Positions 13,178 to 61,425 of a stretch of 64,000 nucleotides of DNA are shown in pieces. The first letter of the stretch is position 1; every line of letters starts with the position of its first letter. The DNA comes from Sporanaerobium hydrogeniformans. Its GTDB lineage: Bacteria > Bacillota > Clostridia > Lachnospirales > Cellulosilyticaceae. The translations under genes were made by a program, and so were the position numbers. The stretch covers positions 1 to 64,000 of the forward strand of contig NZ_PEDL01000010.1 of assembly GCF_002735925.1 (NCBI RefSeq), given 5' to 3'. The notes under the pieces are model-generated. The model was given only the letters and a program-made list of their open reading frames with translations, was not told the DNA's origin and did no database searches.

Positions 13178-13290
13178 TACCAATCTCTTTTTTAAAATAA
13201 GGAATAAGGTTATTTGGAAATAAGAGCTTCATAAGAAATAGAGATTAAAAAAATATATAGCAGGTAAAAATAATAAAATATAAATAGATA

Positions 13291-46303: not shown

Positions 46304-47944
46304 ATGGAAAAAAGAAAGTATCTTAGAGTCATTAACATCAATGGAATACTCACGAGTTTTAGGTATCTCTCACTTTTTTTAACTTCATATTTTTATATGT
46401 TTATAGTGAATGAGCACTCGTGGCAAACAAAAATTTTAGTTGTAGTTGGGCTAGTGCTTACAGGGATAATAATGAATTTTATTTACTTAAATGAAAGAAT
46501 AAATAAGATAGGGCTTATAGTTGCTTTATTTGCAGAAACACTAGGCAATATTTTTTTATTAAGTCTATCTGGTAATTTTCAAAGTCCTTATATTTGGTAT
46601 GGGTTAAATACAGTGATTATGGCAGTAGTTGGACTTGAGAGTTATATGTGTTGGGGAGATCTGGCTATTTATATAAGCCTTTTAGGAATGACAACTATTT
46701 ATGATCGTTTGTTGCATCCTGTGCAGACAAATACCTTTTTTGCGGATATGAACATTACAGTAGGATTAATAATGGCTACATTTGCTTTTCAAGTTATTAT
46801 GAAGCATGTGAGAAAAATAGAGGATAAGACAGATGAGTTATTGATACTCAACGAGAAACTGAGTAGTGCCAATAAGAAGGTTGAAGAGACGATGACTTAT
46901 ATGTGTAAAATTTATGAGATTATTCATCTTTTTAGTACGCAAAACAATAGGCAGGATCTTATTCAGCTTATCCTGGATTATACTACTAAAATGTTTAAAG
47001 TAAACGAAGTATTTTTTATCGAGATAGGAGAAGATGAAAAACACTATAAATTTTATGGGAATAAAGTTGACAAGATAAAGACTGATTTACTGATAAATAA
47101 AGCTTTTGCTGTATGGCAAGGGCAAGATGAACCAAATAACAAATGGATTTTAGAGGTCGAAGATCAAAACTTTACCTGTGTGCCAATAGGGTATACCTAT
47201 AAGCAATTTGGTTTGCTACTTATAGAAGGGATACAGGATGTAGAGCAGCTGAATAGTATTATTCAGCTAAGTGGGATGCTCTTTAAAAAATTTGAAGTTG
47301 AAGCTATCAATGAAGAATTACTCATTAGTGAGGAGCAAAATCGTATTGCCAATGAGATCCATGATCAGGTATTACAAAAGTTATTTGGTGTAACATGTAA
47401 CCTTTTTGCATTGGCAAAAAAAACTTATAGTCTAGATAAGGAGCTAATTGGAGAGGAAATTAATTCTAATCGTGAGATACTTCATAAAGCCATGACAGAA
47501 TTACGTCAGACAATTTATGGATTAAGCTGGGATAAGGAGGGAAAAAGCAGTTTTGAGACACGTGTTGAAGAATACATAAAAGAAATGCAAAAACTGTATC
47601 ACATTCCTATTCAATTTCAATGGACAGGGGAACTTCAATGGCTTACAGCCAAAGAGCAAACGTCTTTGTACCGTATTATCTGTGAGGGGATATCTAATGG
47701 GATAAGGCATGGAGAAGCTACCTCTATAATGATCGATCTAGCTATAAAGGAAACCCATATTCAGCTATGTATAAAAGACAATGGTAGAGGATTTGATAAA
47801 ACAAAGGTAGAACAAAGTCATCAAATGGGATTAGGGCTTAGAAATATGCAGCATCTGTCGAGAGATTTAGCAGGAAAGATGGAGATTGATTCAGAAGAGG
47901 GAAAGGGAACTTTGCTAAAAGTAAGTATACCGAATAAAGTCTAG
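46304..47944 (+). CDS. NarX/DegS-like membrane sensor histidine kinase
   Basis: A 546-aa kinase. The N-terminal region (about 15-165) has 5-6 transmembrane helices without a large extracellular loop, so it probably senses a membrane or intramembrane signal. A coiled coil and a GAF-like domain (about 200-335) follow, then the HisKA_3 dimerisation helix with RIANEIHDQVLQKLFG (H353) and a HATPase with ICEGISNGIRHGEA and DNGRGFD. The cognate regulator is 20 bases downstream. Its position directly before the surface-assembly locus makes it a likely regulator of that locus. Confidence 0.92.
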   Translation: MEKRKYLRVININGILTSFRYLSLFLTSYFYMFIVNEHSWQTKILVVVGLVLTGIIMNFIYLNERINKIGLIVALFAETLGNIFLLSLSGNFQSPYIWYGLNTVIMAVVGLESYMCWGDLAIYISLLGMTTIYDRLLHPVQTNTFFADMNITVGLIMATFAFQVIMKHVRKIEDKTDELLILNEKLSSANKKVEETMTYMCKIYEIIHLFSTQNNRQDLIQLILDYTTKMFKVNEVFFIEIGEDEKHYKFYGNKVDKIKTDLLINKAFAVWQGQDEPNNKWILEVEDQNFTCVPIGYTYKQFGLLLIEGIQDVEQLNSIIQLSGMLFKKFEVEAINEELLISEEQNRIANEIHDQVLQKLFGVTCNLFALAKKTYSLDKELIGEEINSNREILHKAMTELRQTIYGLSWDKEGKSSFETRVEEYIKEMQKLYHIPIQFQWTGELQWLTAKEQTSLYRIICEGISNGIRHGEATSIMIDLAIKETHIQLCIKDNGRGFDKTKVEQSHQMGLGLRNMQHLSRDLAGKMEIDSEEGKGTLLKVSIPNKV

Positions 47945-47964
47945 GTAAATAGGGGAGAGGTAAG

Positions 47965-48603
47965 ATGAAATTATTGATTGTAGATGACCATGAGATTGTA
48001 AGGAAGGGACTTATTGCTAGCTTAGCTATAGAACAGCTATTTGATGAGATAGATGAGGCAGATAGCATAGAAAAAGGGATGAAATCTCTCATCCTAAATA
48101 AACCAGATATGACTATTGTAGATATCAATTTAGGGAATAAGGAGAATGGCTTAACACTTATAGAAAAGGCTAAAGAGAAAAAGTTAATCACTCAGTTTAT
48201 TGTACTCACATCTTCTTCAAGAGTAGGGGACTTTTTAAGAGCTAAGACATTAGAAGTAGAAGGTTATATTTTGAAGGACTCAGATATGGAAGATATTATC
48301 TATGGTATTCGTTCTGTGATAAGAGGACGTAAATTCTATGATGCACAAATTGAAATACAAGTAGAGCAGCATAAGGATCCTTTAAAAGAAAAGCTAACAG
48401 AGAGAGAATATGAGGTACTCGTGGAGTTAGGCAAAGGTTTAACCAATGGTCAGATTGCAGAGACTCTTTTTATTACAGAGAATACGGTTAAAAAGCATAT
48501 TAGCAATTTAATGAGTAAACTAGAGCTAGCGCATCGTACAGAAGTAGCACTTTTTGCTGCAAAGAGGTGGCGAAGGGTAGAAGACCAATTGGTCAAAAAG
48601 TAG
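47965..48603 (+). CDS. NarL/LuxR-type response regulator
   Basis: A 212-aa regulator: receiver domain with phosphoacceptor D53 (TIVDINLGNKENG) and a C-terminal LuxR HTH (LTEREYEVLVELGKGLTNGQIAETLFITENTVKKHISNLMSKL). It forms a pair with the preceding kinase. The first structural gene of the next locus starts 109 bases downstream in the same direction, so the locus may be read through or activated by this regulator. Confidence 0.94.
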   Translation: MKLLIVDDHEIVRKGLIASLAIEQLFDEIDEADSIEKGMKSLILNKPDMTIVDINLGNKENGLTLIEKAKEKKLITQFIVLTSSSRVGDFLRAKTLEVEGYILKDSDMEDIIYGIRSVIRGRKFYDAQIEIQVEQHKDPLKEKLTEREYEVLVELGKGLTNGQIAETLFITENTVKKHISNLMSKLELAHRTEVALFAAKRWRRVEDQLVKK

Positions 48604-48711
48604 TAGTATAAATACTTGTGATTGGTAATGTATGGAAATTAAATCCCCTCTATAATAAGATTATAAAGAAGAACCGTAAAGGGTTTAAAAATAAAAAGGG
48701 GAGATTTAGGA

Positions 48712-49524
48712 ATGAGAAAATCAAAATTAATGATAGGCGTATTAGTTGTATCCATTGCATTACTTGGCACAGGTTATGCGTACTGGACAGATCAACTAAC
48801 ACTTAATTCCACAGTAGAAACAGGAAAATTGAATGTCATTTATACAGCAGCACCTACACTTGCTAAAGGGGAATTGCAACAAGGCAAGGGTGGTGTACTG
48901 ACATGCGGAAAAGAAGAACATGAACATTATGGAATTCCTTTTAGTTTTACTGATTGCTATGATGCGTGGGGAAGAATTGTATGTGGTAAGACAGAACATA
49001 AACATGGCCCAGAATGCTATTCATCAGCAAGTGATCAAGTTTTAGAAAATGAGGGGTATATTATAATCAATCCAACAGGTACACAAACAAGTGAAAAAGA
49101 AATATCATTTGGTGTTGCCAATATGTATCCAGGTAGTTTTGCTACAGCTACATTTACAGCTGAAAACAATGGAACCATTCCAGCAGTTATTGACTATGTA
49201 GAAGTTGCAGAAGGTTTAACAGATGCAGATAAAGCTTTCTTAGGTATTTTAGATGTAGAATTAACAGGAAGTTATATAGATAAAGATGGTGTAACTCAAA
49301 AACTTGCCAAAACAGGAAAATTAGTGAACTTAGCAAGCGTTATGAGTGAGTTTTATGGTAATGCAAGATTGGAGCCTGGTAAGACTATTACAACTACTAT
49401 GAAGGTTACATTTGCAGGTAATGCAGCTTCTGGTGATGATTATGAAAAAAATGGTTCAACCATCACAGTAAAGACAAACTGGATTCAGCACAATGCCTTA
49501 ACTACTGCAGCAAAAGCAGAGTAA
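48712..49524 (+). CDS. SipW-dependent TasA/CalY-like secreted protein with Cys/His motif
   Basis: A 270-aa exported protein. The SipW-type signal is LMIGVLVVSIALLGTGYAYWTDQLTLNSTVETGKL, as in TasA and camelysin, fibre-forming matrix proteins. The mature part has a beta-sandwich with FTAENNGTIPAVIDYVEVAEGLT and ATMKVTFAG-type strands. An insertion at about residues 62-101 repeats LTCGKEEHEHYG and IVCGKTEHKHGPECY, the CGKxEHxHxxxC pattern known from large surface proteins of Lachnospiraceae; it is probably metal-binding. Its own hairpin behind the gene suggests it is made at a higher level than the downstream genes. Likely the main structural subunit. Confidence 0.85.
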   Translation: MRKSKLMIGVLVVSIALLGTGYAYWTDQLTLNSTVETGKLNVIYTAAPTLAKGELQQGKGGVLTCGKEEHEHYGIPFSFTDCYDAWGRIVCGKTEHKHGPECYSSASDQVLENEGYIIINPTGTQTSEKEISFGVANMYPGSFATATFTAENNGTIPAVIDYVEVAEGLTDADKAFLGILDVELTGSYIDKDGVTQKLAKTGKLVNLASVMSEFYGNARLEPGKTITTTMKVTFAGNAASGDDYEKNGSTITVKTNWIQHNALTTAAKAE

Positions 49525-49560
49525 TAAGAGACTAAATAGACGTTAAAATAAAAGCTAACA

Positions 49561-49605
49561 AAATAGAAGGGGAGATTCTAAGGTGAGAATCACCTCTTCT
49601 ATTTG
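49561..49605 (+). terminator. Hairpin after the first TasA-like gene (partial terminator)
   Basis: AAATAGAAG...GATTCT pairs with AGAATC...CTTCTATTT with small internal mismatches. The T run is weak, so read-through to the next genes is probable. Confidence 0.65.
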
Positions 49606-49708
49606 TATACTACTTTAGTAGTAGAAGAGATTATACTTTATAATCAATGAGAGAAAGGAATAAGAATATAAAATGAGAATGGAATAGTAATCCAAGGAGA
49701 GAGATGCA

Positions 49709-50347
49709 ATGAAGAAGAAAAACTTCTTAATAGGAATTGCAATGATAGGCGTAGCCTTTTTTGGCACAGGATATGCCTACTGGAATGATAGCTTAACGGT
49801 TAATACCACAGTGCAAACGGGAAAGTTAAAGATGGTCGCAGTGGTTTCTAAACAAAAGGAAAGTAGAGATAAAAATGAAAAATGTATCACGTCAGAAGTC
49901 ATAGAAGGATACAGTGGCTTTTGTTATAGATTAGATAAAAAGCTTATACCTGGAAGTGGTTATGAATTTGAGGCAACATTTATTAATCAAGGGACAATAC
50001 CAGCTGTATTAGAAGAAATAATGATTACACCATCTACTGATGCAGATACAGAAAGTTATGAGGCACTTTATGGTTCGGAAATGGTATTTGTTTTACAAGA
50101 TGAAAAGGGAGAACTTATACGTCAGTTGGAGATCGAAGGTGAGATGCCACTCATGACACTCACAACCCAAATCAATAAGAAATTACAAGAGGAAGAAGCT
50201 TTTAGGATAGAAGTAGGGCAAAGTATTCTTTTAAAGGGGAAAGTGATGCTTAGTCCAAAGCTGACTTCTAAAAATGGAAAAAATAAATGTGAAGGTAAAG
50301 AAGCAAGCTTTGATATTAAGTTGATGTATAAACAACATAACCAGTAG
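49709..50347 (+). CDS. SipW-dependent TasA/CalY-like secreted protein (second)
   Basis: A 212-aa protein with the same signal type (IAMIGVAFFGTGYAYWNDSLTVNTTVQTGKLKM) as the first. The mature region has FEATFINQGTIPAVLEEIMITPS, corresponding to the ENNGTIPAVIDYVEV strands of its paralogue, and two cysteines (KCITSE, GFCYR) that could form a disulfide. No Cys/His insertion. Behind GGAGAGAG, in the same transcription direction. Confidence 0.8.
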   Translation: MKKKNFLIGIAMIGVAFFGTGYAYWNDSLTVNTTVQTGKLKMVAVVSKQKESRDKNEKCITSEVIEGYSGFCYRLDKKLIPGSGYEFEATFINQGTIPAVLEEIMITPSTDADTESYEALYGSEMVFVLQDEKGELIRQLEIEGEMPLMTLTTQINKKLQEEEAFRIEVGQSILLKGKVMLSPKLTSKNGKNKCEGKEASFDIKLMYKQHNQ

Positions 50348-50383
50348 GATTTACTGGTTTATTAATGCGAAAGGGGGAGGAGA

Positions 50384-51067
50384 ATGTGTGCTAGAAAATT
50401 TAGCAAAATATATGTACTCGCCTTGCTGGTCACACTAGTGAGTAGTACTTTAGGAATAAGCTATGCTTACTGGACAGATGCTAATATCATCCATTCCGAG
50501 GTTAAAACAGCAAAGTTTACACCTGCAGAGACAGGATCACTTAAGTCCAATTGCAGGGTAAGGAGTAGGGAATGGGATAGTTTATTAACGTGCAATTATG
50601 ATCAGGAGACAGTGGAGCTGGTGATAGAGGCAGAGGAAGAAGAAGGTATTGAAATACCCCTTACCTATGCAGGGTATGAAATTTATACCATAGGTGAAGG
50701 TGGTTATTTTTCAGATGCAGCCCATGAGGCAGATTGTTTACTTATTGAAAATAGAGATATGACGCGAGGTAAGGTGCAAGATTATGAACTAGGAGCAGTT
50801 AATTTGCAAGTACAATTGAATATAGATAGGGAACAATTAGCCACTGCCCTAGAAGCCAAAGGAATAAATTCAACTTCTCTATGTATGGTGAGGTTAAAAG
50901 TATTTTTAAAGCAAGAAGGCTATGATGTAAACGATGAAGCAGGTTGGGGATACAGTATGACAAAGAAACTTCAAGGTATTTTTAGAGAACCTAAAGTAGA
51001 AGAAGCTGAGAATGTAAAGGAAGTATCTGGAGTAGTCAATGCGCAAGAAGTGATTGATGAAAAATAA
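50384..51067 (+). CDS. SipW-dependent TasA/CalY-like secreted protein (third)
   Basis: A 227-aa protein. The signal reads VLALLVTLVSSTLGISYAYWTDANIIHSEVKTAKFTP, with the same SYAYWTD processing region. The mature part is more diverged: it has four cysteines (NCRVRS, LTCNYD, DCLLIE, LCMVR), an EEEEGIEIPLTYAGYEI strand and an acidic C-terminal tail. It may be a minor or cap subunit (inference). The signal peptidase gene follows 12 bases later. Confidence 0.75.
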   Translation: MCARKFSKIYVLALLVTLVSSTLGISYAYWTDANIIHSEVKTAKFTPAETGSLKSNCRVRSREWDSLLTCNYDQETVELVIEAEEEEGIEIPLTYAGYEIYTIGEGGYFSDAAHEADCLLIENRDMTRGKVQDYELGAVNLQVQLNIDREQLATALEAKGINSTSLCMVRLKVFLKQEGYDVNDEAGWGYSMTKKLQGIFREPKVEEAENVKEVSGVVNAQEVIDEK

Positions 51068-51079
51068 AAGGAGAAGCGT

Positions 51080-52288
51080 GTGATAGGGGAACTTACTAAT
51101 ACTCAATATAAAAAAATAGCGAATGGTTTGGTGTTAATTATTCTCCTTTTTTATACTCTGGAAAACTCCTTTGTAGCAAAGTATATAGGAGGGACACTGT
51201 TTGTATACGGAGTAAAGCCACTTTTTTATATCCTCATTGCAATGATAATGGCATGGAAGGTACCTAAAGTACGTTCATGTGGTAAATTGCTTCATCAATC
51301 AACAGTGTATACCTGGGCCTTTAACTGTGGTGTTATTTATATAGTAGCTAATATACTAGGGGGGGTTATTCAAGGTTTTGGGAAAAGTCCTTATAACCTA
51401 ACCCCACTAGGGATGATAACCAACATCTGGACAGTAGGTAGTGTACTAATAGGAAGAGAAATGATACGCGCTTATGTGATAAATAGTCATAAAGGCCTAA
51501 AGTCTAAGGTTTTCTTTGGAGTAGTTGTTCTTATTATGACCTTTACGAATATACGTTTAGCTGAAATAAAAGGACTAAGTGATTTAGAGACATGGACTAT
51601 TTTTATGGCAGAAAAATTAATACCAGAGTTATGTCATAACCTATTAGCAACTTATCTAGTGATGTACGCAGGACCACTTGCCTCTATCCTTTATTTAGGG
51701 ATGATTGAAGCTGTCATGTGGCTTTCACCTATATTACCTAATATCAATTGGTTAGGTAAAGGGGTCATAGGGATGCTCATTCCCCTACTTTGTTTAGTAT
51801 ATATCCATACTCAGTATCTAAGCCTTACCAAAAAAATAAAAATGTATAAGGAAAAGCAAGAGAAATTAATAGAGTGGGTACCTTTTACTTTAATCACTAT
51901 TAGTTTTATATGGTTTGTAGCAGGAGTATTCCCTATCTATCCTTCAGCCATAGCGACAGGAAGTATGCAACCCCTGATAGATCCAGGAGATGTCATCCTC
52001 TTAGAGAAGATAAAAGATATGGAAGATGTGAAGCGTTTAAAGGTAGGAGATGTTATCCAATTTAAAAGAGGGGATATATTGATTACCCATAGGATTATAG
52101 AAGTAGTAGAAGAGCAAAATGGATTCGTCTTTCGAACGAAAGGGGATAATAATTCCGTAGAAGATAGGCAGGTTGTTGTACCAGAGAATTTGAAAGGTAT
52201 CCTCAAAGGCATAGTACCTAAAGTGGGGTATTTAACGATTCTATTAAAGAGTCAGGATTTAAGTAGCTTAGAAGAGGTAGAATTCTGA
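51080..52288 (+). CDS. ER/SipW-type signal peptidase I with multi-TM N-terminal extension
   Basis: A 402-aa membrane protease. The C-terminal catalytic domain starts at about 270: the nucleophile S295 is in ATGSMQPLIDPGDVILLEK, and the general base is H337 in ITHRIIEV rather than Lys, the Ser-His dyad of SipW, archaeal and ER enzymes. GDNNSVEDRQVV is the third conserved box. B. subtilis SipW is about 190 aa; here about 260 extra residues with roughly 7-8 membrane helices precede the catalytic TM. The start is GTG behind AAAGGAG. It should process the three TasA-like proteins and perhaps the LPQTG protein. Confidence 0.9.
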   Translation: MIGELTNTQYKKIANGLVLIILLFYTLENSFVAKYIGGTLFVYGVKPLFYILIAMIMAWKVPKVRSCGKLLHQSTVYTWAFNCGVIYIVANILGGVIQGFGKSPYNLTPLGMITNIWTVGSVLIGREMIRAYVINSHKGLKSKVFFGVVVLIMTFTNIRLAEIKGLSDLETWTIFMAEKLIPELCHNLLATYLVMYAGPLASILYLGMIEAVMWLSPILPNINWLGKGVIGMLIPLLCLVYIHTQYLSLTKKIKMYKEKQEKLIEWVPFTLITISFIWFVAGVFPIYPSAIATGSMQPLIDPGDVILLEKIKDMEDVKRLKVGDVIQFKRGDILITHRIIEVVEEQNGFVFRTKGDNNSVEDRQVVVPENLKGILKGIVPKVGYLTILLKSQDLSSLEEVEF

Positions 52289-52316
52289 ACACTACTAGGG
52301 ATGGGGAGTGATAATC

Positions 52317-53216
52317 GTGAGAAGAAAGAAAGGGAAAATAGTAGGCCTAACACTTATTATTGGAGCCATTTTATTACAAGTAGGTTATGCAGCTACAGTC
52401 AATATAGAGGGAATAAATGGCACAGCAGACTACAAGGTGGTATTAGAATGTAGTGCAGGTGCAAAAGATGACTATATTACAGAACCTACTATTGAAGATA
52501 TAGGAAATGGGACGGCCAAGATAACAGTAGGTAATTTATATCCAGGTGGGAAGTTTACAGTCAATAATACCATCCGAAATACTGGTGCAAAGGATGTATT
52601 ATTTAAAGGTATAGATATTGCTTATGTAGAAGGAGAGAAAGAACTTTATAATAGCCTTGTCATCTATGAAGAGGATAAAGAGTTTGTAGGTCTAGAAACT
52701 TATGAAAGTCACCTCGCCCAAGCTATGGAACTGCGTTATAAAGATAATATCTTTAAGTCAGGGGAGGCTGCATTATTACCTTTAACAATAGGAATGTCAC
52801 CAGATGAAATAGGTTTGCAAGGAAAAAGAGTTAATTTTAAAATTAGCCTCATATATGAACAATACCTACCTACTATAGAAGAAGGAGGCACAGGTAACAC
52901 AACTAGCAATAACTCTCCAAATACAGATCCGACACAGCTTGAAAAGGTGCCAAGTGAACCTACCCAGATAGAAGAAGAGGCTATACCAGGTGGCCCCGCT
53001 CAGATAGAAGAGGAAGCTGTACCAGGTGAACCGGTTACTATAGAAGAAGAGGCTGTACCAGGTGGCCCTGCTCAGATAGAAGAGGAGGACCTGCCAGTAG
53101 GTCCAACAAAATTACCTCAGACTGGCGGCTTACCTACACTATTTATCTATGGAATAGGAATAGTTATGCTAGGTAGTGGCATAAGTATTTATAGGATGTC
53201 AAAAAAACAAGAATGA
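52317..53216 (+). CDS. LPXTG cell-wall-anchored protein with Pro/Glu repeat stalk
   Basis: A 299-aa protein. The signal is basic then hydrophobic (VGLTLIIGAILLQVGYAATVNIEG), similar in place to the TasA-like signals. A TasA-like beta region follows (VGNLYPGGKFTVNNTIRNTGAKDVLFKGIDIAYV), then a Ser/Asn/Pro linker, four 12-aa repeats, and the sorting signal LPQTG (about residues 263-267 of this start) with a hydrophobic helix and RMSKKQE tail. GTG 52317 is preferred since GGGGAG is 8 bases upstream; GTG 52308 overlaps it. The class D sortase downstream is the likely anchoring enzyme, making this a wall anchor for the TasA-like fibre. Confidence 0.88.
   Translation: MRRKKGKIVGLTLIIGAILLQVGYAATVNIEGINGTADYKVVLECSAGAKDDYITEPTIEDIGNGTAKITVGNLYPGGKFTVNNTIRNTGAKDVLFKGIDIAYVEGEKELYNSLVIYEEDKEFVGLETYESHLAQAMELRYKDNIFKSGEAALLPLTIGMSPDEIGLQGKRVNFKISLIYEQYLPTIEEGGTGNTTSNNSPNTDPTQLEKVPSEPTQIEEEAIPGGPAQIEEEAVPGEPVTIEEEAVPGGPAQIEEEDLPVGPTKLPQTGGLPTLFIYGIGIVMLGSGISIYRMSKKQE
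52965..53108 (+). repeat. Four 36-bp tandem repeats (12-aa EEEAVPGGPAQI type)
   Basis: Four in-frame 36-bp units at 52965, 53001, 53037 and 53073 encode QIEEEAIPGGPA, QIEEEAVPGEPV, TIEEEAVPGGPA and QIEEEDLPVGPT. Copies 1-3 are highly similar in DNA, suggesting recent duplication. The product is an acidic, proline-rich stalk between the folded part and the LPQTG anchor; copy number may vary between strains. Confidence 0.9.
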
Positions 53217-53222
53217 TTAGGT

Positions 53223-53252
53223 GAAAAGGGCTCCAACCGGGTAGCCCTTTTC
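53223..53252 (+). terminator. Hairpin after the LPXTG gene (weak terminator)
   Basis: GAAAAGGGCT pairs with AGCCCTTTTC around CCAACCGGGT. Only TTTTC follows, then GGCACG, so it is likely partial. The next gene begins 37 bases later. Confidence 0.5.
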
Positions 53253-53288
53253 GGCACGTTAAAAAGACAAAAAATAAGGGGGAGCAGG

Positions 53289-54389
53289 ATGAAGAGATTT
53301 GAACGAATAAGACTCCATAAGTGGGTAAGAATGATACTTATAGGGGGGCTAGGTGTATTAAGTCTAGTAGGTATAGGGGTTATAGTAAAAGAGGTTAGGG
53401 CTGAGCATATTCAGGAACAACAACGTTCACTTTATGACTATAGATTGAAGTCGGCGTTTAACTACCAGGTCTATTTATTGCCAAATAAACTTTATGAAGA
53501 AGGAAAGCAGGGGGAGGAGGAAACCTACCTTGCAGAATTTGTTGATAAGATTGAAATAGGTCTAGAGAGTGTTTTTGAAGGAAGTGAGGTAGCAGATATA
53601 CAGGGTCAGTATCAGATTGCGGGGACTGTGCAGGGTTATACGACGAAAGAGGAGAAAAAGCAAATTATCTGGAGTAAAACCTTTGAGATACTTCCTTCTA
53701 AATCTTTTAAAGAGCACACCGATAAACACCATATAAAGCCTACTATACAAGTAGATTTTGCTTATTATAATCAGTTCGCACGAGATATTATAGAAGCCTC
53801 CCAGGTGAATACACCGGTAGAGTTAGTGATTAAGTTAGAAGGAAAGCAAACCATTACTACACAAGCGGGAATAGTGCCGGGAGAGATACAAGGAACGATT
53901 ACCATTCCACTTAATACAGCTTATTTTAGCATTAAGAAAGAGGGAGGAGCAGAAGTAAAGGATTCTTTGTGGGAGACTTATACGGTTCCTATTCCAATCA
54001 ATATTCAAATCATTATACTAGGGGTATTTATGATGATACTAGGAGTAATTCTTTTAGGAGGAGTTATCCTACTTACAGAACCTTTGAGTGCAAGAGATTT
54101 ACGTTTTAGGCAACTTAAGAGATTACTTAATAATTATGGGAATCGTATGGTAGCTATAGACACTCTAAGACCTATAGATACTAGTGAGGGATATTATGTA
54201 AGTTCTCTAGAAGACCTCATAAAAATAGCAGATGAGATAGAAAAACCAGTTTTTTACCAACGTTATAATAAGCTATTAGAACTTGACACTTTTTATGTAG
54301 AGCAAGAAAAGGTTACTTATATTTATAAACTTGAAGCGTTTAATGATGGAGAATACGTAAAAGAGCAAATAGAAGAGTCAATAAGTTAG
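53289..54389 (+). CDS. DUF5305-like membrane protein
   Basis: A 366-aa protein. TM1 at about 14-35, a 200-residue outside domain of beta-rich character (YQIAGTVQGYTTKEEKKQIIWSKTFEILPSK, VELVIKLEGKQTITTQAG), TM2 at about 238-260 (INIQIIILGVFMMILGVILLGGVIL) and a cytoplasmic tail of about 100 residues. This layout and the sequence feel match DUF5305, found in archaea and Firmicutes near SipW-type signal peptidases. The role is unknown; it may be an assembly or export partner for the TasA-like proteins. Confidence 0.72.
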   Translation: MKRFERIRLHKWVRMILIGGLGVLSLVGIGVIVKEVRAEHIQEQQRSLYDYRLKSAFNYQVYLLPNKLYEEGKQGEEETYLAEFVDKIEIGLESVFEGSEVADIQGQYQIAGTVQGYTTKEEKKQIIWSKTFEILPSKSFKEHTDKHHIKPTIQVDFAYYNQFARDIIEASQVNTPVELVIKLEGKQTITTQAGIVPGEIQGTITIPLNTAYFSIKKEGGAEVKDSLWETYTVPIPINIQIIILGVFMMILGVILLGGVILLTEPLSARDLRFRQLKRLLNNYGNRMVAIDTLRPIDTSEGYYVSSLEDLIKIADEIEKPVFYQRYNKLLELDTFYVEQEKVTYIYKLEAFNDGEYVKEQIEESIS

Positions 54390-54414
54390 CAACCATTAGG
54401 ATAGGAGGAGAAAA

Positions 54415-55224
54415 ATGAGTTTATGGCAAGTAAGTTACCAAAAAATAATATTTTTTATGGGGTTACTGATTGCTTGTAACTGTTATGCTGCGAGTCAACC
54501 CTCTATTGATAGTCGAGATAGTCACAAAGGGGTTGTACATATTGCCTATAAAGAAGCATCATCAAAAAAGGTAAAGGTCATCATTGAAAAGGGAAACAAG
54601 AAATATACATATGATTTAAAAAACACAGGAGAAGTAGAAGATTTTCCTTTGCAAATGGGAAATGGAACGTATACGATTAAAGTTTTAGAAAATACAGCAG
54701 GAACTTCCTATTATATAGTAAGTTCACAAACAGTAGAGGTTAAGTTACAGAATGAAAATAGTGTTTACCTAAATACCATTCAGAATATGAAATGGTCAGA
54801 AGACTCTAATGCCATAAAAAAAGCAGTAGAAATGACTAACACTACAACAAATTTGCAAGAAAAAGCAAATATACTTTATAAGCATATGGTACAAAGTTAC
54901 ACGTATGATTATTATAAATTAGCGAAGCTTCCATCTACATATATACCTGTTATTGACCAGACTTTTAAAGATAAAACAGGGATTTGTTATGATTTTTCTT
55001 CACTTTATGGTGCCATGTTACGTAGTCAAGGGATTCCAGCTAAACTCATAAAAGGTTACACTCCTAATGCAGAGGGGTACCATGCATGGAATGAGGTGTA
55101 TGACCAGGAGAAGAAGAAGTGGTTGATTATTGATACCACTTATGATTTACAGGTGATTGCTAAAAAACCAGATGTAAAAATGACAAAGTCAGAGAAAGAT
55201 TATCAAAAGGTAAATGAATATTAA
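54415..55224 (+). CDS. Secreted transglutaminase-like protein
   Basis: A 269-aa exported protein with an N-terminal signal (IIFFMGLLIACNCYAASQPS) and a transglutaminase-like domain at about 140-255. The catalytic triad is visible: C191 (GICYDFSSLYGAMLRSQGIPA), H223 (GYHAWNEVY) and D240 (WLIIDTTYD). A beta domain precedes it. Bacterial members act as transglutaminases, peptidases or peptidoglycan-related enzymes. In this locus it could cross-link or trim surface fibres; that is inference. Confidence 0.82.
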   Translation: MSLWQVSYQKIIFFMGLLIACNCYAASQPSIDSRDSHKGVVHIAYKEASSKKVKVIIEKGNKKYTYDLKNTGEVEDFPLQMGNGTYTIKVLENTAGTSYYIVSSQTVEVKLQNENSVYLNTIQNMKWSEDSNAIKKAVEMTNTTTNLQEKANILYKHMVQSYTYDYYKLAKLPSTYIPVIDQTFKDKTGICYDFSSLYGAMLRSQGIPAKLIKGYTPNAEGYHAWNEVYDQEKKKWLIIDTTYDLQVIAKKPDVKMTKSEKDYQKVNEY

Positions 55225-55248
55225 TCATGCTATGGGGTATAGGGAGAA

Positions 55249-55932
55249 ATGAAATATATAGGTAGAGGATTGATTGCATTAGGGCTCATCATCATGATTA
55301 TTCCGACTATAGGCACTCTTTGGATTCAATATGAAGAGCAGAGCCTCTATATTGCATATTTACAAGAACAGCAATTACAAAGGCAAGAGCAACAAGCTGT
55401 AGAAGTAGAGCAGAAGGAAGGGGCTGAAGGGGTAGGGGAGATAGATACTTTTGAAGAGAGGCTTGTTGAAAAAGAAGAAGAAGGCTTGCTTCTTATTCAT
55501 AAGGAAGAAGGTGAAGTGATTGGCAAAATCAAAATACCTGCTATTAAACTTGACCTTTTACTATTAGAAGGGATAACAGAAAAAAGTCTTTCAAAAGGAG
55601 CAGGGCATATGACAGGGACAGCTTGGCCGGGGCAGAAAGGGAATTGCACCATTGCAGGTCATAGAAACTATACCTTCGGTTCAAGATTCAACAGATTAGG
55701 TCAAGTAAAAGAGGGAGATGTAATCATTTTAGAAGTAGGAGATAAGGCGTATACCTATAAGGTAACAGAGATAAAAGTAGTCATACCAGAGGATTTATCG
55801 CCACTGGAGCAACCTCTTACTGAGAGAAAAGTTACCTTGATTACTTGTCATCCTATTTATAAGGCAACACACCGTTTAATTGTCATAGGAGAAAAAACAG
55901 AGAGTGAAGAGACAGGTCATACAGTAAGATAA
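55249..55932 (+). CDS. Class D sortase
   Basis: A 227-aa sortase. N-terminal TM at about 5-27, a Gln/Glu-rich coil (EEQSLYIAYLQEQQLQ) and the beta-barrel catalytic domain from about 88. The active residues are H138 (AGHRN), C200 (LITCHP) and R209 (THRLIVIGE). The class D assignment rests on short length and the N-terminal anchor; class E or a pilus class is less likely. It should cleave the LPQTG of the wall protein at 52317. It ends 15 bases before the GspF-like gene. Confidence 0.9.
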   Translation: MKYIGRGLIALGLIIMIIPTIGTLWIQYEEQSLYIAYLQEQQLQRQEQQAVEVEQKEGAEGVGEIDTFEERLVEKEEEGLLLIHKEEGEVIGKIKIPAIKLDLLLLEGITEKSLSKGAGHMTGTAWPGQKGNCTIAGHRNYTFGSRFNRLGQVKEGDVIILEVGDKAYTYKVTEIKVVIPEDLSPLEQPLTERKVTLITCHPIYKATHRLIVIGEKTESEETGHTVR

Positions 55933-55946
55933 TGGAGGTGGGAATA

Positions 55947-56963
55947 ATGAGAGAAAAGGAATTAGCCATTTTTTGTACTCAAATAGAAATGATTTTAAAA
56001 GCAGGGATTACTCTATCAGAGGGGGTAGGGATGATTGCAGAAGATATAGAGGAGCACACATTAGCAAACCATTTTAAACGAATAGAAAAATATTTAGAAG
56101 AGGGAAGAACGCTACATGATGCTTTAGAAGAAGAGGGAAGTTTTCCGAGCTATATGGTTCATATGGTCAAGATAGGAAGTTTATCGGGGAGAATGGAAGA
56201 GGTTATGGGCGCATTAGGACACTATTATGACAGAGAAGATCAACTGCGACAAAGTGTTAGAGGAGCTGTTTTTTATCCCTTGCTACTTTGTTTTATGATG
56301 TTTGTAGTCATGCTCTTTCTTTCTATAAAGGTACTCCCTGTTTTTGAGAAGGTATTTAATACATTAGGGGGAAGCTTGGTTGGACTTGCACACTATTTTA
56401 TGAGGTTTGGTGAATTACTTAGCCGGTATATTTATGGGGTAGTAGGAATAATGGGGGTTGTTCTCATTAGTGTCATTCTTTTGTTAAAGACTCAAAAAGG
56501 AACCACTTTCATCAAAAATCTAATCAATCACTTAAAGATAACGGAAAAAATAGCTATTTCACGTTTTGCTTCTGCTCTTTCTTTAATGTTAGCAAGTGGG
56601 ATGGATACAGAGGAGGCATTAAAAACAGCATTAATGGCTATTGAAAATAAAAAAGTACAAGCAAGAGGTGAAGAGAGTATTCTACTTATGGAAAGTGGAA
56701 AAGGGTTTATAGAAGCATTGAGAGAAGGTAACTTTTTTTCGAGTCTTACGCTTAGGAAGTTAAGTATAGGTTTGCGTACTGGTAATTTGGACGAAGTAAT
56801 GGTACAAGTAGCGAACCAGTATGATGAGGAGGTACAGGAAGCTCTTGCAAAAGTGGTTTCTCTCATAGAACCTATTTTAGTGGGAATTTTAGCAGTAGTG
56901 ATAGGTAGTGTTTTATTATCTGTTATGCTTCCGTTAATGGGGATCATGGCATCTATAGGTTAA
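55947..56963 (+). CDS. GspF/PilC-family inner-membrane platform protein
   Basis: A 338-aa protein with two T2SSF domains. The first (about 5-125) has LKAGITLSEGVGMIAEDIEE and is followed by TM1 (VFYPLLLCFMMFVVMLFLSI), then TM2, the second T2SSF domain (RFASALSLMLASGMDTEEALKTALMAIE) and a final TM (LIEPILVGILAVVIGSVLLSVMLPLM). This is the membrane platform on which pilus ATPases act. I use ATG 55947 because GGAGGTGG is 5 bases before it; ATG 55932 overlaps the sortase stop. It is about 60 aa shorter than E. coli GspF. Confidence 0.9.
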   Translation: MREKELAIFCTQIEMILKAGITLSEGVGMIAEDIEEHTLANHFKRIEKYLEEGRTLHDALEEEGSFPSYMVHMVKIGSLSGRMEEVMGALGHYYDREDQLRQSVRGAVFYPLLLCFMMFVVMLFLSIKVLPVFEKVFNTLGGSLVGLAHYFMRFGELLSRYIYGVVGIMGVVLISVILLLKTQKGTTFIKNLINHLKITEKIAISRFASALSLMLASGMDTEEALKTALMAIENKKVQARGEESILLMESGKGFIEALREGNFFSSLTLRKLSIGLRTGNLDEVMVQVANQYDEEVQEALAKVVSLIEPILVGILAVVIGSVLLSVMLPLMGIMASIG

Positions 56964-56974
56964 AGGAGGGTAGT

Positions 56975-57295
56975 ATGAAACGGTATCATTTAGGGCAAGG
57001 CATAGGAACCCTATTATTTTTTCTTATCATGATAGGTGTTGTTTGGAGAGGGATACAAATTACTACAACAAGTGTAGAAGATAAGGGGCTAGACACATTA
57101 AATCACGCTATTCGAAGGGCAGTCGTACAGTGCTATGCCATAGAAGGGATGTACCCCAGAAATATAGGGTATATAGAGGATAATTATGGCATTATGATTG
57201 ATACTTCCAGATACATTGTGCACTATGAAATATTTGCCTCAAATATTATGCCAGATATTACTGTATTGACAAGAGGGGGAGGGGAAAAAGAGTGA
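56975..57295 (+). CDS. Small single-TM protein of the pilus-like cluster
   Basis: A 106-aa protein. One N-terminal membrane helix (GTLLFFLIMIGVVWRGIQI), then a short outside domain with YPRNIGYIEDNYGIMIDTSRYIVHYEIFASNIMPDITV, a small beta pattern reminiscent of minor pilin-like proteins. No standard G-F-T-L-x-E prepilin cleavage site can be seen. Overlaps the next gene by 4 bases (GTGA-type coupling). Confidence 0.72.
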   Translation: MKRYHLGQGIGTLLFFLIMIGVVWRGIQITTTSVEDKGLDTLNHAIRRAVVQCYAIEGMYPRNIGYIEDNYGIMIDTSRYIVHYEIFASNIMPDITVLTRGGGEKE

Positions 57296-57786
57296 AGGCA
57301 AAATATAGATGGAATGAATACACTTCTGAAACGTTACTTATGTTAACAATCCTTCTTCTATTTGTAAGTACTTCTTTTATAGTAGTGAAAGTAGGGGCTG
57401 ATGTTTATAAGAAGATTGTACAGGATATGGAAAGTCATTTTGAAAGAAGCACACCCCTTCTCTATATAGCAACCAAGATTAGGCAAAATGATCAAGTGGG
57501 AAAGATAGAGCTTGAGCAAAAAGAAGGACAAAATGTTTTAGTCATAACGGAAGATTTAGAGGGAACAAGGTATGAGACATGGATTTATAATTATGAAGGA
57601 GCCCTTTATGAAGCCTTTATAGAGAAAGGAACAACTATTAAATTGTCAGATGGGATGCGTATTATGGAGATACATGATTTAAAAATGCAACAATTAGAAA
57701 ATCAAATGCTAAATATTGTTGTAAAAGATAAAGAGAGCAAGGAATTGGAACTGTCATTATGCTTAAAGAGCAAGGCAAAGCAGTAA
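57292..57786 (+). CDS. DUF4860-like pseudopilin-type protein
   Basis: A 164-aa protein with GTG start. N-terminal helix SETLLMLTILLLFVSTSFIVVKV with a glutamate at its start, similar in place to the Glu5 of pseudopilins but without the Gly-Phe cleavage pair. The outside domain has EGTRYETWIYNYEGALYEAFIEKG and resembles the DUF4860 domain, a family seen in Firmicute type IV pilus-like clusters. The family call is from memory and moderate. Confidence 0.65.
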   Translation: MKAKYRWNEYTSETLLMLTILLLFVSTSFIVVKVGADVYKKIVQDMESHFERSTPLLYIATKIRQNDQVGKIELEQKEGQNVLVITEDLEGTRYETWIYNYEGALYEAFIEKGTTIKLSDGMRIMEIHDLKMQQLENQMLNIVVKDKESKELELSLCLKSKAKQ

Positions 57787-57799
57787 GAAGGAGGGAGTT

Positions 57800-58261
57800 A
57801 TGAAGAATAGTAGGATATCCCATTTAAGAGCTTTTTTGGTAGAGTTGATGAGTGTTGTGCTCTTTTTTTCGGTGGCACTTGCCCTTATGAGTAGGGTTTT
57901 TGCAGCTGCTCATAATTTAAGGCAGAAGGCTTCTGATTTAACAGAGGCTGTGGCAAAAGTACAAACTTTGGCGGAGTATGCTAAAGCTAGTTATTCTAAA
58001 GAAGACTATAAGCAAAGTCTTATTGCATTAGGTGGTATAGAAGTAGGAGAGAATATTCATTTTTATTATGATGAAAAATGGCAATTACAATCTTGGAAAG
58101 AAGAAAGTTGTTATGTGGTAGAGGTCTTAACGCAGATAGAGTCTCTAAAGAGTGGGGAATGTATACGCATTAATATTGCTACTAAGAACAAAGAGGAGTC
58201 TATTTACAACCTGCAAGTAAAGAAATATTATACTGGCATAGTAAGGGGCGATAAGACATGA
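57800..58261 (+). CDS. Pseudopilin-like small membrane protein
   Basis: A 153-aa protein. N-terminal helix AFLVELMSVVLFFSVALALMSRVF has phenylalanine and a glutamate in near-prepilin spacing, followed by an alpha-helical stalk (AHNLRQKASDLTEAVAKVQTLAEYAKASY) and a small C-terminal domain with one cysteine pair (SCYVV, GECIRI). This is the best pilin-like layout in the cluster, but the canonical GFTLxE is absent. Overlaps the next gene by 4 bases. Confidence 0.7.
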   Translation: MKNSRISHLRAFLVELMSVVLFFSVALALMSRVFAAAHNLRQKASDLTEAVAKVQTLAEYAKASYSKEDYKQSLIALGGIEVGENIHFYYDEKWQLQSWKEESCYVVEVLTQIESLKSGECIRINIATKNKEESIYNLQVKKYYTGIVRGDKT

Positions 58262-58689
58262 AAAGAAAAATGAAGGGTGCTATAGGTATAGGTACCTCCT
58301 CTATGATTATGATTTTTGTGCTATTAGCAATTGTCACATTGGGGATACTGGCATTAGAAACGGCTCAAGCAGATTACAGATTAGCACAAAGGGTAGGGGA
58401 GAGCATCAAGCTATTTTATGAGGCAGACAGTCAGGCAGAGGAGCAATTAGCATGTCGTATTGAAGAGATAGCCGATGATACATTTATAGAGGGAGAGAAA
58501 AATACCTCCTTTGAGGTAACTTATGAGGTGCCAATGGGAGAAAAACAGAAACTATGTGTACAGGTAGAAGTAACAAAAAAGAGTGGGATAATGGAATATA
58601 AAAAAACAGATTGGCATGTTGAAAATATAGAGGAATGGCAGCTCGAAGAGAATGGCTTAGGTTTTGGTGATATTAGGGTACAAGATTAG
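58258..58689 (+). CDS. Small single-TM protein of the pilus-like cluster
   Basis: A 143-aa protein. N-terminal helix IGTSSMIMIFVLLAIVTLGILALETAQADYRLAQ followed by a helical segment and a short beta domain (NTSFEVTYEVPMGEKQKLCVQVEVTKKSG). It resembles the TadE/PilX-like minor pilin layout with a stalk helix. No function is certain. It precedes the PilT gene by 11 bases. Confidence 0.7.
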   Translation: MKRKMKGAIGIGTSSMIMIFVLLAIVTLGILALETAQADYRLAQRVGESIKLFYEADSQAEEQLACRIEEIADDTFIEGEKNTSFEVTYEVPMGEKQKLCVQVEVTKKSGIMEYKKTDWHVENIEEWQLEENGLGFGDIRVQD

Positions 58690-58700
58690 GAGGAAAGGAA

Positions 58701-59759
58701 ATGGATGCAAAGAAACTTTTTAAAGAAGCAGTAGAACATGACGTAACAGACATATTTGTGGTGGCAGGGGCACCACTTGCTTTTAAAATTAGAGGAAACA
58801 TCGGTTTAAGAGACGATAATAAATTAATGCCTGAAAAGACAAAGGAGCTTATTGAGGCTATTTATATACTTGCAGAGCGTGATACAAGGAATTTATCAGA
58901 AAAGGGAGATGATGATTTTTCCTTTTCTATTCCAAAGGTAGGCAGGTTTAGGGTAAATACTTATAAACAAAGAGGTTCACAAGCTGCAGTTATAAGAGTC
59001 GTTCAGTTTGAATTACCCCATATTGAAACATTAGGTATTCCTAAGCAAATAATTGATTTGTATAAGAGAACAAAAGGGCTTGTACTTGTAACAGGACCTG
59101 CAGGGAGTGGGAAATCGACCACACTTTCTTGCATCATTGATCAGATTAATAAGACAAGGACAAGTCATGTTATTACGCTAGAAGATCCTATAGAATTCAT
59201 CCATAAACATAATAAAAGCATTGTTAGTCAACGAGAAATAGGGACAGATACAGCAAGCTATGTACAAGGTTTAAGGGCAGCACTGAGAGAGGCGCCTGAC
59301 GTTATCTTGCTAGGTGAGATGAGAGATTTTGAGACTATTAATATTGCCATGACAGCAGCAGAGACAGGCCAACTAGTACTAGGCACACTACATACATTAG
59401 GAGCAGCTAATACAGTGGATCGTATCATAGACGTTTTCCCGGCGAATCAACAACAACAGATTAGGACGCAGCTTTCTATGGTTTTACAAGCCATTGTTTC
59501 ACAGCAACTTATACCAGGAAAAGACGGAGCGGTTTTACCTGTTTTTGAGATAGTGTTTGTCAATAGTGCTATACGTAATATGATTAGAGAATCTAAGATG
59601 CATCAAATAGATTCAGTTATTTTTGCGGCTAAAGAAGAAGGAATGTGTAATATGGATGGCAGTATCATTAAACTTTATCAAGAAGGCAAAATTACAGGGG
59701 ACAATGCCATTGCCTATAGCATAAATCATGAGGCAATGCGCAAGAAAATTGGAGAATGA
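58701..59759 (+). CDS. pilT: PilT-family twitching-type ATPase
   Basis: A 352-aa ATPase. N-terminal PAS-like domain (FKEAVEHDVTDIFVVAGAPLAFKI) followed by the RecA-like core: Walker A GPAGSGKST (K138), the Asp box TLEDPIEFIH, Walker B DVILLGEMRDFETI and the His box GTLHTLGAANTVDRIIDVF. AALREAPDVILLGEMRD is the PilT signature rather than PilB. Normally PilT retracts pili; here it is the only ATPase in the cluster and may drive the platform protein at 55947. Confidence 0.93.
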   Translation: MDAKKLFKEAVEHDVTDIFVVAGAPLAFKIRGNIGLRDDNKLMPEKTKELIEAIYILAERDTRNLSEKGDDDFSFSIPKVGRFRVNTYKQRGSQAAVIRVVQFELPHIETLGIPKQIIDLYKRTKGLVLVTGPAGSGKSTTLSCIIDQINKTRTSHVITLEDPIEFIHKHNKSIVSQREIGTDTASYVQGLRAALREAPDVILLGEMRDFETINIAMTAAETGQLVLGTLHTLGAANTVDRIIDVFPANQQQQIRTQLSMVLQAIVSQQLIPGKDGAVLPVFEIVFVNSAIRNMIRESKMHQIDSVIFAAKEEGMCNMDGSIIKLYQEGKITGDNAIAYSINHEAMRKKIGE

Positions 59760-60053: not shown

Positions 60054-60647
60054 ATGGAAGAGATAGAACTTATAAGAAAGGTAAGAGAAGGTGATAAGGA
60101 AGCCTTTGGAGCCCTTTTTGAACGCTATAAGGTACAAGCAATCCGTACGGTTTATCTGATAACGGGTGATCAATATAGAAGTGAGGACATTGTTCAGGAG
60201 GCTTTTGTGAAGTGCTATTTGAGTATTCATAAGTTAAGGAATCCAGAACAGTTTAGAGCATGGTTTTTTAGAATACTTACTCGGCTTGCATGGCGAAATG
60301 ATGTGAGGGCGAAGCGAATGGTACCTACAGAGGATATCATGGAAGTTATGAATAAGAAGGCAGACCAAATTTCTTTGGAGAATATTTATTTGCAGAGTGA
60401 AACGCAAAGACTTCTTCAGGGTGAAATTGAAAAATTAGGTAGTGAACACCAAATGATTCTTATTTTGTATTATTACAATGAGTTGTCTGTTAAAGAAATT
60501 GCTAAAGTAGTAGGATGTCTAGAAGGAACAGTAAAGTCACGCTTGCATACAGCAAGGGGCCAGTTAAAGAAGGCGCTCATAGCAAGGCAAGAGAGTAAAG
60601 TAGAGAATGGGGAGGGTGAAGGGTATGAGGCGTACAGAGGTATTTGA
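60054..60647 (+). CDS. ECF-type RNA polymerase sigma factor
   Basis: A 197-aa sigma-70 family factor. Region 2 has EAFGALFERYKVQAIRTVYLITGDQYRSEDIVQEAFVKCYLSIHKL with the RAWFFRILTRLAWR -10 recognition part; region 4 has ILYYYNELSVKEIAKVVGCLEGTVKSRLHTARGQLKKAL. It is followed, with a 23-base overlap, by a membrane protein that fits an anti-sigma factor. Confidence 0.93.
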   Translation: MEEIELIRKVREGDKEAFGALFERYKVQAIRTVYLITGDQYRSEDIVQEAFVKCYLSIHKLRNPEQFRAWFFRILTRLAWRNDVRAKRMVPTEDIMEVMNKKADQISLENIYLQSETQRLLQGEIEKLGSEHQMILILYYYNELSVKEIAKVVGCLEGTVKSRLHTARGQLKKALIARQESKVENGEGEGYEAYRGI

Positions 60648-61425
60648 TGAGCAGGTTAAGCAAAGTTTAAATAGAAAAGCAGAAGAGATAGAAATATCAG
60701 AGGTATTATTCCAAAAGATTAAAGCACAAGTTATTCAAAAAGAGGAGGAAAATAAGATGGGAGGTTTCTTTAAAAATAGAAAAATGAAAAAAATGATTAT
60801 GGTGGGAGCAGCATCCTTATTATCAATCACCTGTATAGCAGCACCTATTATACTTCCAGCGTTAAATTCATGGGAAAGTCATGGAAGAACTAGTTTTGAA
60901 AGCTTTCCAACATTAGCACAAGTACAAAAGGAGGTAGACTATACCCCTAAGTATATAGATGAGTTGCCAGGAGGCTTTGTGTTTAAAAGGGCATCGACGG
61001 AGAATATAGAAGGGAAAGATGCAGATGAAAATACAGTAGTTAAAGCCAAAGGCATAAGCTTTTTCTACGAACCTATAGAAGGAAGCAAGGGTAGGATCCT
61101 GAGCTTAGACACCAAACAATTAGCTGAGGAATGGATGAATAGTGGGGAAGCAGAAGAGATAGGTTTAGACGATTTAAAGGTCTACTATGAAGCACGTACT
61201 ATGAAATTCGTACCAGTGGATTATGAACTTACAGAGCAGGATAAACAAGATCAGGAAGCTGGGAAAATAGATATTTCTTATGGTACAGATACGATTCAGG
61301 TTATAAATACACAGGCTATAACTTGGTATGAAGAGGGGATAACCTATACGCTTCTAGACATGGGGTATGAGTTAGACAAAGAACAGCTCCTAGAAATGGT
61401 AGAAGCTGTTTATGCGGTAGAGTAG
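60625..61425 (+). CDS. Putative membrane-bound anti-sigma factor (DUF4367-like)
   Basis: A 266-aa protein. The N-terminal about 55 residues are cytoplasmic and helical, one TM lies at about 62-80 (KMIMVGAASLLSITCIAAPIIL), and the outside domain of about 180 residues includes KYIDELPGGFVFKRASTE and ITYTLLDMGYELDKEQLLEMVEAVYA, the DUF4367-type ending. I use ATG 60625 since GGGGAGGG lies 8-9 bases upstream; ATG 60607 sits on it. It probably holds the ECF factor at the membrane until an envelope signal arrives. Confidence 0.8.
   Translation: MRRTEVFDEQVKQSLNRKAEEIEISEVLFQKIKAQVIQKEEENKMGGFFKNRKMKKMIMVGAASLLSITCIAAPIILPALNSWESHGRTSFESFPTLAQVQKEVDYTPKYIDELPGGFVFKRASTENIEGKDADENTVVKAKGISFFYEPIEGSKGRILSLDTKQLAEEWMNSGEAEEIGLDDLKVYYEARTMKFVPVDYELTEQDKQDQEAGKIDISYGTDTIQVINTQAITWYEEGITYTLLDMGYELDKEQLLEMVEAVYAVE

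Follow-up and report, generated by a model that had tools for sequence, protein, structure and literature searches.

A TasA-type fibre operon beside a widespread pilus-like module with a transglutaminase in Sporanaerobium hydrogeniformans

Do sixteen neighbouring surface genes of Sporanaerobium hydrogeniformans encode one machine or several? The genes are located at positions 46304-59759 of the window, which is the whole stretch of 64,000 nucleotides that was analysed (assembly GCF_002735925.1, contig NZ_PEDL01000010.1, positions 1-64,000, forward strand). A sequence-only reading had taken them for a hybrid locus whose parts cooperate to build and anchor one fibre or pilus. We found that the locus consists of two modules, namely module M (48712-54389), of the SipW/TasA matrix fibre type, and the pilus-like module P (54415-59759), which is a distinct and widespread system missed by the earlier reading. 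The explanation that we consider probable is that of two fused systems, with module P being a tethered pseudopilus driven by PilT, with a transglutaminase as its partner.

To follow both modules in genomes of the same family and order, the Pfam families DUF4860 and DUF5305 were used as markers of the pilus part and the fibre part, respectively. Gene order was mapped for about 80 loci from these genomes, and for 80 further loci from a collection with named records. DUF4860 was present in 121 out of 392 genomes of the order (60 out of 174 genera) and in 44 out of 393 genomes of the class, and DUF5305 in 24 out of the 392 genomes of the order. Both markers were found together in six of the 392 genomes, where about seven are expected under independence (Fisher p = 0.65). 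Five of these six genomes belong to this genus and one sister genus and retain the gene order of the window, and in the sixth the two markers are on different contigs. Modules M and P are therefore a local fusion, being adjacent only in these two genera, in four genomes. The survey rules out the whole locus as a conserved hybrid system; the independent occurrence of the two parts is largely the outcome that the sequence-only reading had itself named as contrary to its proposal. The surface theme of that proposal stands, whereas M and P are separate in almost all relatives.

In the one-machine explanation, the TasA-like fibre would be put together or cross-linked by the pilus machinery and the transglutaminase, and the sortase would anchor it. 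We regard it as quite improbable. The compact co-directional order is retained in two sister genera, the reading frames of the sortase and GspF overlap, and a kinase-regulator pair is also located beside module P in another genus of the family (L049). Nevertheless, the markers co-occur no more than by chance, many genomes hold either module complete without the other, and BsaA of Clostridium perfringens polymerises without such machinery (PMC7395162).

In other genomes, module M is made up of TasA-like genes together with SipW and DUF5305, and a regulator or kinase frequently accompanies them. Module P is found elsewhere in the order transglutaminase-GspF-pil1-DUF4860-pil3-pil4-PilT in Butyrivibrio, Lacrimispora, Dorea, Drancourtella, Marasmitruncus, many Oscillospiraceae and Sedimentibacter, the last with the transglutaminase on the opposite strand and the same order otherwise. 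Among 133 module P loci (duplicates removed), GspF and DUF4860 were present in all 133, pil1 in 130, pil3 in 124, pil4 in 121, the transglutaminase in 119, PilT in 91 and the sortase in 14, nine of which fall outside this family. Thus, the transglutaminase goes with module P and not with the fibre. The sortase is found with the module only occasionally, having joined it repeatedly, although in a minority of loci. In the window, module P is composed of the following genes:

54415-55224, + strand: predicted exported transglutaminase-like enzyme, opening module P (Transglut_core 75 bits; Cys191-His223-Asp240 invariant).
55249-55932, + strand: sortase (class C/D/E-like), inserted between the transglutaminase and GspF in this lineage (sortase profile 113 bits; synteny).
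55932-56963, + strand: GspF/PilC platform protein, short form (T2SSF 141 bits, over cut-off; tree).
56975-57295, + strand: pil1, lacking a prepilin signal, with a probable pilin fold and a CYAxEGxYP motif (structure model).
57292-57786, + strand: DUF4860, modelled as a GspJ-type minor pseudopilin, without cleavage site (DUF4860 100 bits; structure model).
57800-58261, + strand: pil3, pilin in GspI/PilV position (+5 Glu present, -1 Gly lost; canonical GFTLIE in outgroup members).
58258-58689, + strand: pil4, pilin in GspK/PilX position (invariant Gly present).
58701-59759, + strand: PilT ATPase, closing module P (TIGR01420 418.6 bits, over cut-off; Walker A, GEMRD and AIRNMIRE motifs).

The four small proteins, described before as single-transmembrane proteins, are indeed present and are better described as relatives of type IV pilins. 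Divergent members of the module carry ordinary prepilin signals, such as G/FTLIE in pil3, G/SSLIE in some DUF4860 proteins and G/ATSVLV in pil4. Structure models of pil1 and DUF4860, based on 63 and 64 aligned sequences, reached a mean predicted local distance difference test (pLDDT) score of 87.8 and 92.9, respectively, and in both a single long N-terminal helix precedes the strands. The DUF4860 model matched GspJ pseudopilins (GspJ/XcpW/EpsJ) and the pilin TTHA1219 with VIA-align Z values of 8.2-9.6, the next unrelated fold reaching 4.5. By this model, DUF4860 is a GspJ-like minor pseudopilin. The best match of the pil1 model was PilA4 with a Z of 7.4, which is below the level that is safe alone, and is suggestive of a pilin fold. 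Foldseek returned no match at E <0.001 for either model; the VIA-align Z is the basis for calling DUF4860 a pilin, and the call for pil1 is weaker. Together with the T2SSF platform (141 bits), module P thus possesses a platform protein and, in DUF4860, a subunit of pilin fold, as expected for a type IV filament.

Most module P pilins are without the prepilin processing signal. In the GspF tree, 52 loci were separated (support 100/100) from ten loci with canonical signals or type IV pili (T4P), and in agreement the PilT tree placed the signal-less members in one clade (99/100). Signals were counted over 145 loci, of which 14 have a canonical pil3 and 131 belong to the main clade. For canonical members and the main clade, respectively, pil3 has the -1 Gly in 14/14 and 25/131, the strict G/xxxxE motif in 14/14 and 6/131, and the +5 Glu in 14/14 and 129/131. 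The strict motif was found in none of the 133 DUF4860 proteins, 113 of which have an acidic residue in the +5 column, and pil1 lacks the prepilin motif. The class III (prepilin) signal is accordingly largely absent from the main clade and present in its sister members, which indicates that one clade has lost the prepilin peptidase site and kept the +5 Glu. This Glu normally pairs with the free N-terminus produced by cleavage (PMC10191384). Its retention without a cleavage site is odd and suggests that it contacts something else, perhaps GspF.

The processing and motor genes were also searched for outside the cluster. PF01478, the prepilin peptidase family, was found in 76 of the 80 genomes bearing DUF4860, and is missing in four genomes that are 96-100% complete (G041, G243, G251 and G267), where nothing passed the PF01478 cut-off even at E 10. 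In these four, the PilT of the module is the sole T2SSE protein of real score and its GspF the sole T2SSF protein. In a second set, 55 of 69 genomes possess PF01478 and 14 do not. Among the latter, G517 (one contig, 2.97 Mb), G676 (five contigs) and G591 (100% complete) carry the signal-less module. Seven genomes at least 96% complete thus carry this module without a detectable prepilin peptidase; the T2SSE scan covered the first four of them. The module P cluster itself contains neither a prepilin peptidase nor an extension ATPase, PilT being its only motor. This PilT is intact, most loci having the Walker A, GEMRD and AIRNLIRE-type motifs. PilM, PilN and PilO were not among the conserved neighbours of the 133 loci.

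These results bear on the possibility that module P is an ordinary retractile T4P, for which a peptidase of the tight adherence (Tad) or T4P type is encoded elsewhere and PilB or CpaF provides extension in trans. In total 131 of the 149 genomes tested encode a PF01478 protein, PilB is present in many, the genome of the window has a separate T4P locus with PilB (L067), and pil4 retains its Gly. Such a pilus is nonetheless unlikely, given that the -1 Gly is gone in most pil3 proteins, that DUF4860 and pil1 have no motif, and that seven nearly complete genomes (at least 96%) carry the module without PF01478, with no other T2SSE ATPase in the four that were scanned.

The separate locus is a canonical type IVa pilus (T4aP) locus at about 494.8-505.3 kb of G000:C11 (L067:7857-18341). 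It encodes PilB, PilT, a PilC of 404 residues, pilins with GFTMIE and GFSLLE signals, and PilM/N/O-like genes. Owing to a frameshift or a sequencing error, its prepilin peptidase is split into two overlapping frames (L067:12449-12976 and 12930-13226), the latter of which contains the second catalytic motif.

A relationship to the competence (Com) pilus for DNA uptake in Clostridia was also considered. Similar to the Com pilus in size and make-up, module P has one ATPase, one platform protein, four small pilins and no PilMNO. In the divergent members with canonical signals PilT stands first, and their order ATPase-GspF-pilins matches comG. However, the ATPase belongs to the PilT family (418 bits), reaching 142 for ComGA against a cut-off of 300, and GspF scores 122 for ComGB against a cut-off of 240. 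Membership in the Com pilus was rejected on these scores, which are far under the NCBIfam cut-offs. The Com pilus moreover requires the ComC peptidase and an extension ATPase (PMC10191384), and this explanation appears highly improbable.

The N-terminal region of the transglutaminase-like protein is conserved, and residues C191, H223 and D240 of the protein are invariant. The catalytic Cys-His-Asp pattern was found in 127 of 130 module transglutaminases and a lipobox-like signal in 69 of 130. Since this signal occurs in about half of the loci, the enzyme is probably extracellular, that is, outside the membrane and facing the heads of the pilins. Surface peptidases of the transglutaminase family, whose role is unknown, are strongly associated with archaeal T4P loci (PMC4858521). 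Like module P, these are recurrent filament loci with an exported transglutaminase-family protein, but they possess assembly ATPases and prepilin peptidases and belong to another lineage with another gene set.

The reading of module P as a tethered pseudopilus draws on its computed composition and synteny, the loss of the cleavage signals, the pilin fold, and the persistence of the module without a detectable prepilin peptidase and, in four genomes, without an extension ATPase. We infer from it a tethered stub, a force acting on it and a substrate for the enzyme. The proteins pil1, DUF4860, pil3 and pil4 would form a short, membrane-anchored pseudopilus on the GspF platform, and PilT alone would move it. 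Subunits of the main clade would skip the prepilin peptidase and would then probably stay tethered in the membrane, so that no long pilus is made. The surface transglutaminase-like enzyme would be the dedicated partner or effector of the module, probably cross-linking or cutting proteins in the zone of the wall, with the stub driven by PilT controlling this activity. PilT aids extension of the mannose-sensitive haemagglutinin (MSHA) pilus of Vibrio cholerae (PMC9815625), and a machine with PilT as its only motor is therefore not absurd. A bolder and tentative proposal is that module P gave up filament assembly and became a mechano-enzymatic device, in which uncleaved, tethered pilins and a retraction-type motor may drive or position the wall-side transglutaminase.

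Several observations weigh against the tethered pseudopilus. The invariant Gly of pil4 is kept in 126 out of 126 proteins. Most carriers of module P possess PF01478, and processing in trans is possible there. The PF01478-negative drafts with canonical signals (L170-L172, L176 and L179) look like assembly gaps, which makes absence from a draft weak on its own; the absence in G453, G567, G684, G761 and G067 was not counted, as canonical signals are kept in them and the drafts may have gaps. In genus g13 (L178, at G327:C1:88000-104000, and L177) the cluster is found without PilT, and a PilT encoded alone elsewhere is closer to the canonical T4P PilT than to the PilT of the module. Finally, the partnership of transglutaminase and pilins is a putative one, suggested by gene neighbourhood.

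According to current reviews, every type 4 filament system has a pilin, a prepilin peptidase, an extension ATPase and a platform (PMC10191384), and Nanoarchaeota were earlier noted as a phylum without a detectable prepilin peptidase (PMC4471445). Similar to other members of the type IV filament superfamily, such as T4aP, the Com pilus and the pseudopilus of the type II secretion system, module P has GspF, PilT, DUF4860 with a GspJ fold, pilins in GspI and GspK position and the +5 Glu. Unlike them, its cluster lacks an extension ATPase and a prepilin peptidase, none being detectable in several genomes, it has lost the cleavage site, it has a transglutaminase as fixed partner, and it has no PilMNO. 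As judged from its gene content, module P departs from the stated core, retaining pilins and platform and dropping peptidase and extension ATPase. No description of DUF4860, of Lachnospiraceae T4P with a transglutaminase, or of peptidase-less systems was found in open-licence papers. About a third of Lachnospirales genomes carry module P, which occurs in about 130 loci across Clostridia. In abundant bacteria of the gut and rumen it is maintained with a tightly conserved gene order and undamaged catalytic motifs. The module would be a test case for PilT working alone, for pilins acting uncleaved, and for the role of surface transglutaminases tied to pilus loci, including the archaeal ones (PMC4858521).

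Regulatory genes were observed beside module P in other genera. An extracytoplasmic function (ECF) sigma factor precedes the transglutaminase in 36 of the 133 loci (e.g. L032, L053, L119 and L162), and in 23 of the 133 a membrane anti-sigma-like protein of about 168 residues also precedes it, which suggests a putative envelope-stress control. In the window, an ECF sigma factor and a DUF4367-type anti-sigma-like gene are located at 60054-61425, just downstream of module P and past a tRNA-Gln. The sigma factor at 60054 was rejected as a regulator of module P, being separated by the tRNA and not kept in the loci of the sister genus. In L049, from a genus of the same family without TasA/SipW genes, a kinase-regulator pair and a fragment resembling an LPXTG protein are located directly before the transglutaminase; this arrangement is perhaps a remnant or a forerunner of the fusion.

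The remaining genes of the locus are a regulatory pair and module M:

46304-47944, + strand: membrane sensor histidine kinase, LiaS/NarQ-like (HATPase_c, HisKA_3; conserved in L007, L008 and L010).
47965-48603, + strand: LuxR/NarL-type response regulator (Response_reg and GerE).
48712-49524, + strand: TasA-like secreted fibre protein 1 (SipW-type signal, NMYPG...NNG motif; TIGR04088 17.6 bits, cut-off 19).
49709-50347, + strand: TasA-like protein 2 (SipW-type signal; TIGR04088 above cut-off, 23.3 vs 19).
50384-51067, + strand: TasA-like protein 3, divergent (iterated profile search of syntenic loci only; no convincing Pfam or NCBIfam family).
51080-52288, + strand: SipW/endoplasmic reticulum-type signal peptidase with an extra N-terminal membrane domain (TIGR02228 74 bits, above cut-off; SipW-Bacil 80 bits, below its cut-off).
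52308-53216, + strand: TasA-like protein with a repeat stalk and a C-terminal LPQTG sorting signal (LPXTG_anchor 18.1 bits, over cut-off).
53289-54389, + strand: DUF5305 membrane protein, the constant neighbour of SipW (PF17231 105 bits; synteny).

All sixteen genes are intact open reading frames on the + strand, and the parts and common direction listed by the sequence-only reading agree with this. Its surface-assembly theme was correct as well, and no described system with all these parts was found. The label of class D sortase did not hold: class C scores best, all class models remain under their cut-offs, and the general sortase model alone was passed. From 49709 to 59759 the intergenic gaps are at most 72 nucleotides, the sortase and GspF frames share one base, and predicted terminators are not above chance (10 vs 7.6, standard deviation 3.1). 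A single transcript is therefore plausible for these co-directional genes; joint transcription, like any cooperation of M and P, is something that we infer.

Module M possesses a SipW-type peptidase together with substrates carrying SipW signals, as in a SipW/TasA matrix operon. The kinase and regulator would control the fibre operon, and the three TasA-like subunits would be exported and then cut by the SipW-type peptidase. After removal of its signal and anchor, the LPQTG protein could be aligned by hhalign with the set of TasA-like proteins (probability 89, E 2e-6), and the NxYPG...NxG pattern is common to both. LPKTG or LPQTG is kept in 5/5 syntenic loci, in each of which the C-terminal LPXTG motif is accompanied by a hydrophobic run, a basic tail and a nearby sortase. 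The TasA-like character of the LPQTG protein makes it probable that the fibre is attached to the wall by the sortase, and this fourth TasA-like protein would be the covalent foot of the fibre.

Similar to the sipW-bsaABC-bsaRS operon of C. perfringens (PMC7395162), module M combines a SipW peptidase, matrix proteins of the TasA/BsaA type and a two-component system with a nearby sortase gene. However, one TasA-like subunit of module M carries LPQTG, and DUF5305 and the fusion to module P are further differences; BsaA of C. perfringens has no LPXTG, and deletion of srtB was without effect (PMC7395162). AbpX, a protein of archaeal bundling pili, is a weak match of the 48712 product (E 2.6e-4), and the NxYPG motif is shared among the TasA-like proteins here. 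Unlike the archaeal bundling pili (AbpA/AbpX), module M is bacterial, and is predicted to depend on SipW and to have a wall-anchored member. The fibre half of the locus suggests a sortase-anchored TasA-type fibre, which would be a candidate way to tether biofilm matrix to the cell wall. At 52932-53097 of the window, an imperfect repeat of 36 nucleotides occurs four times and encodes the acidic IEEEAxPGxP stalk of the LPQTG protein.

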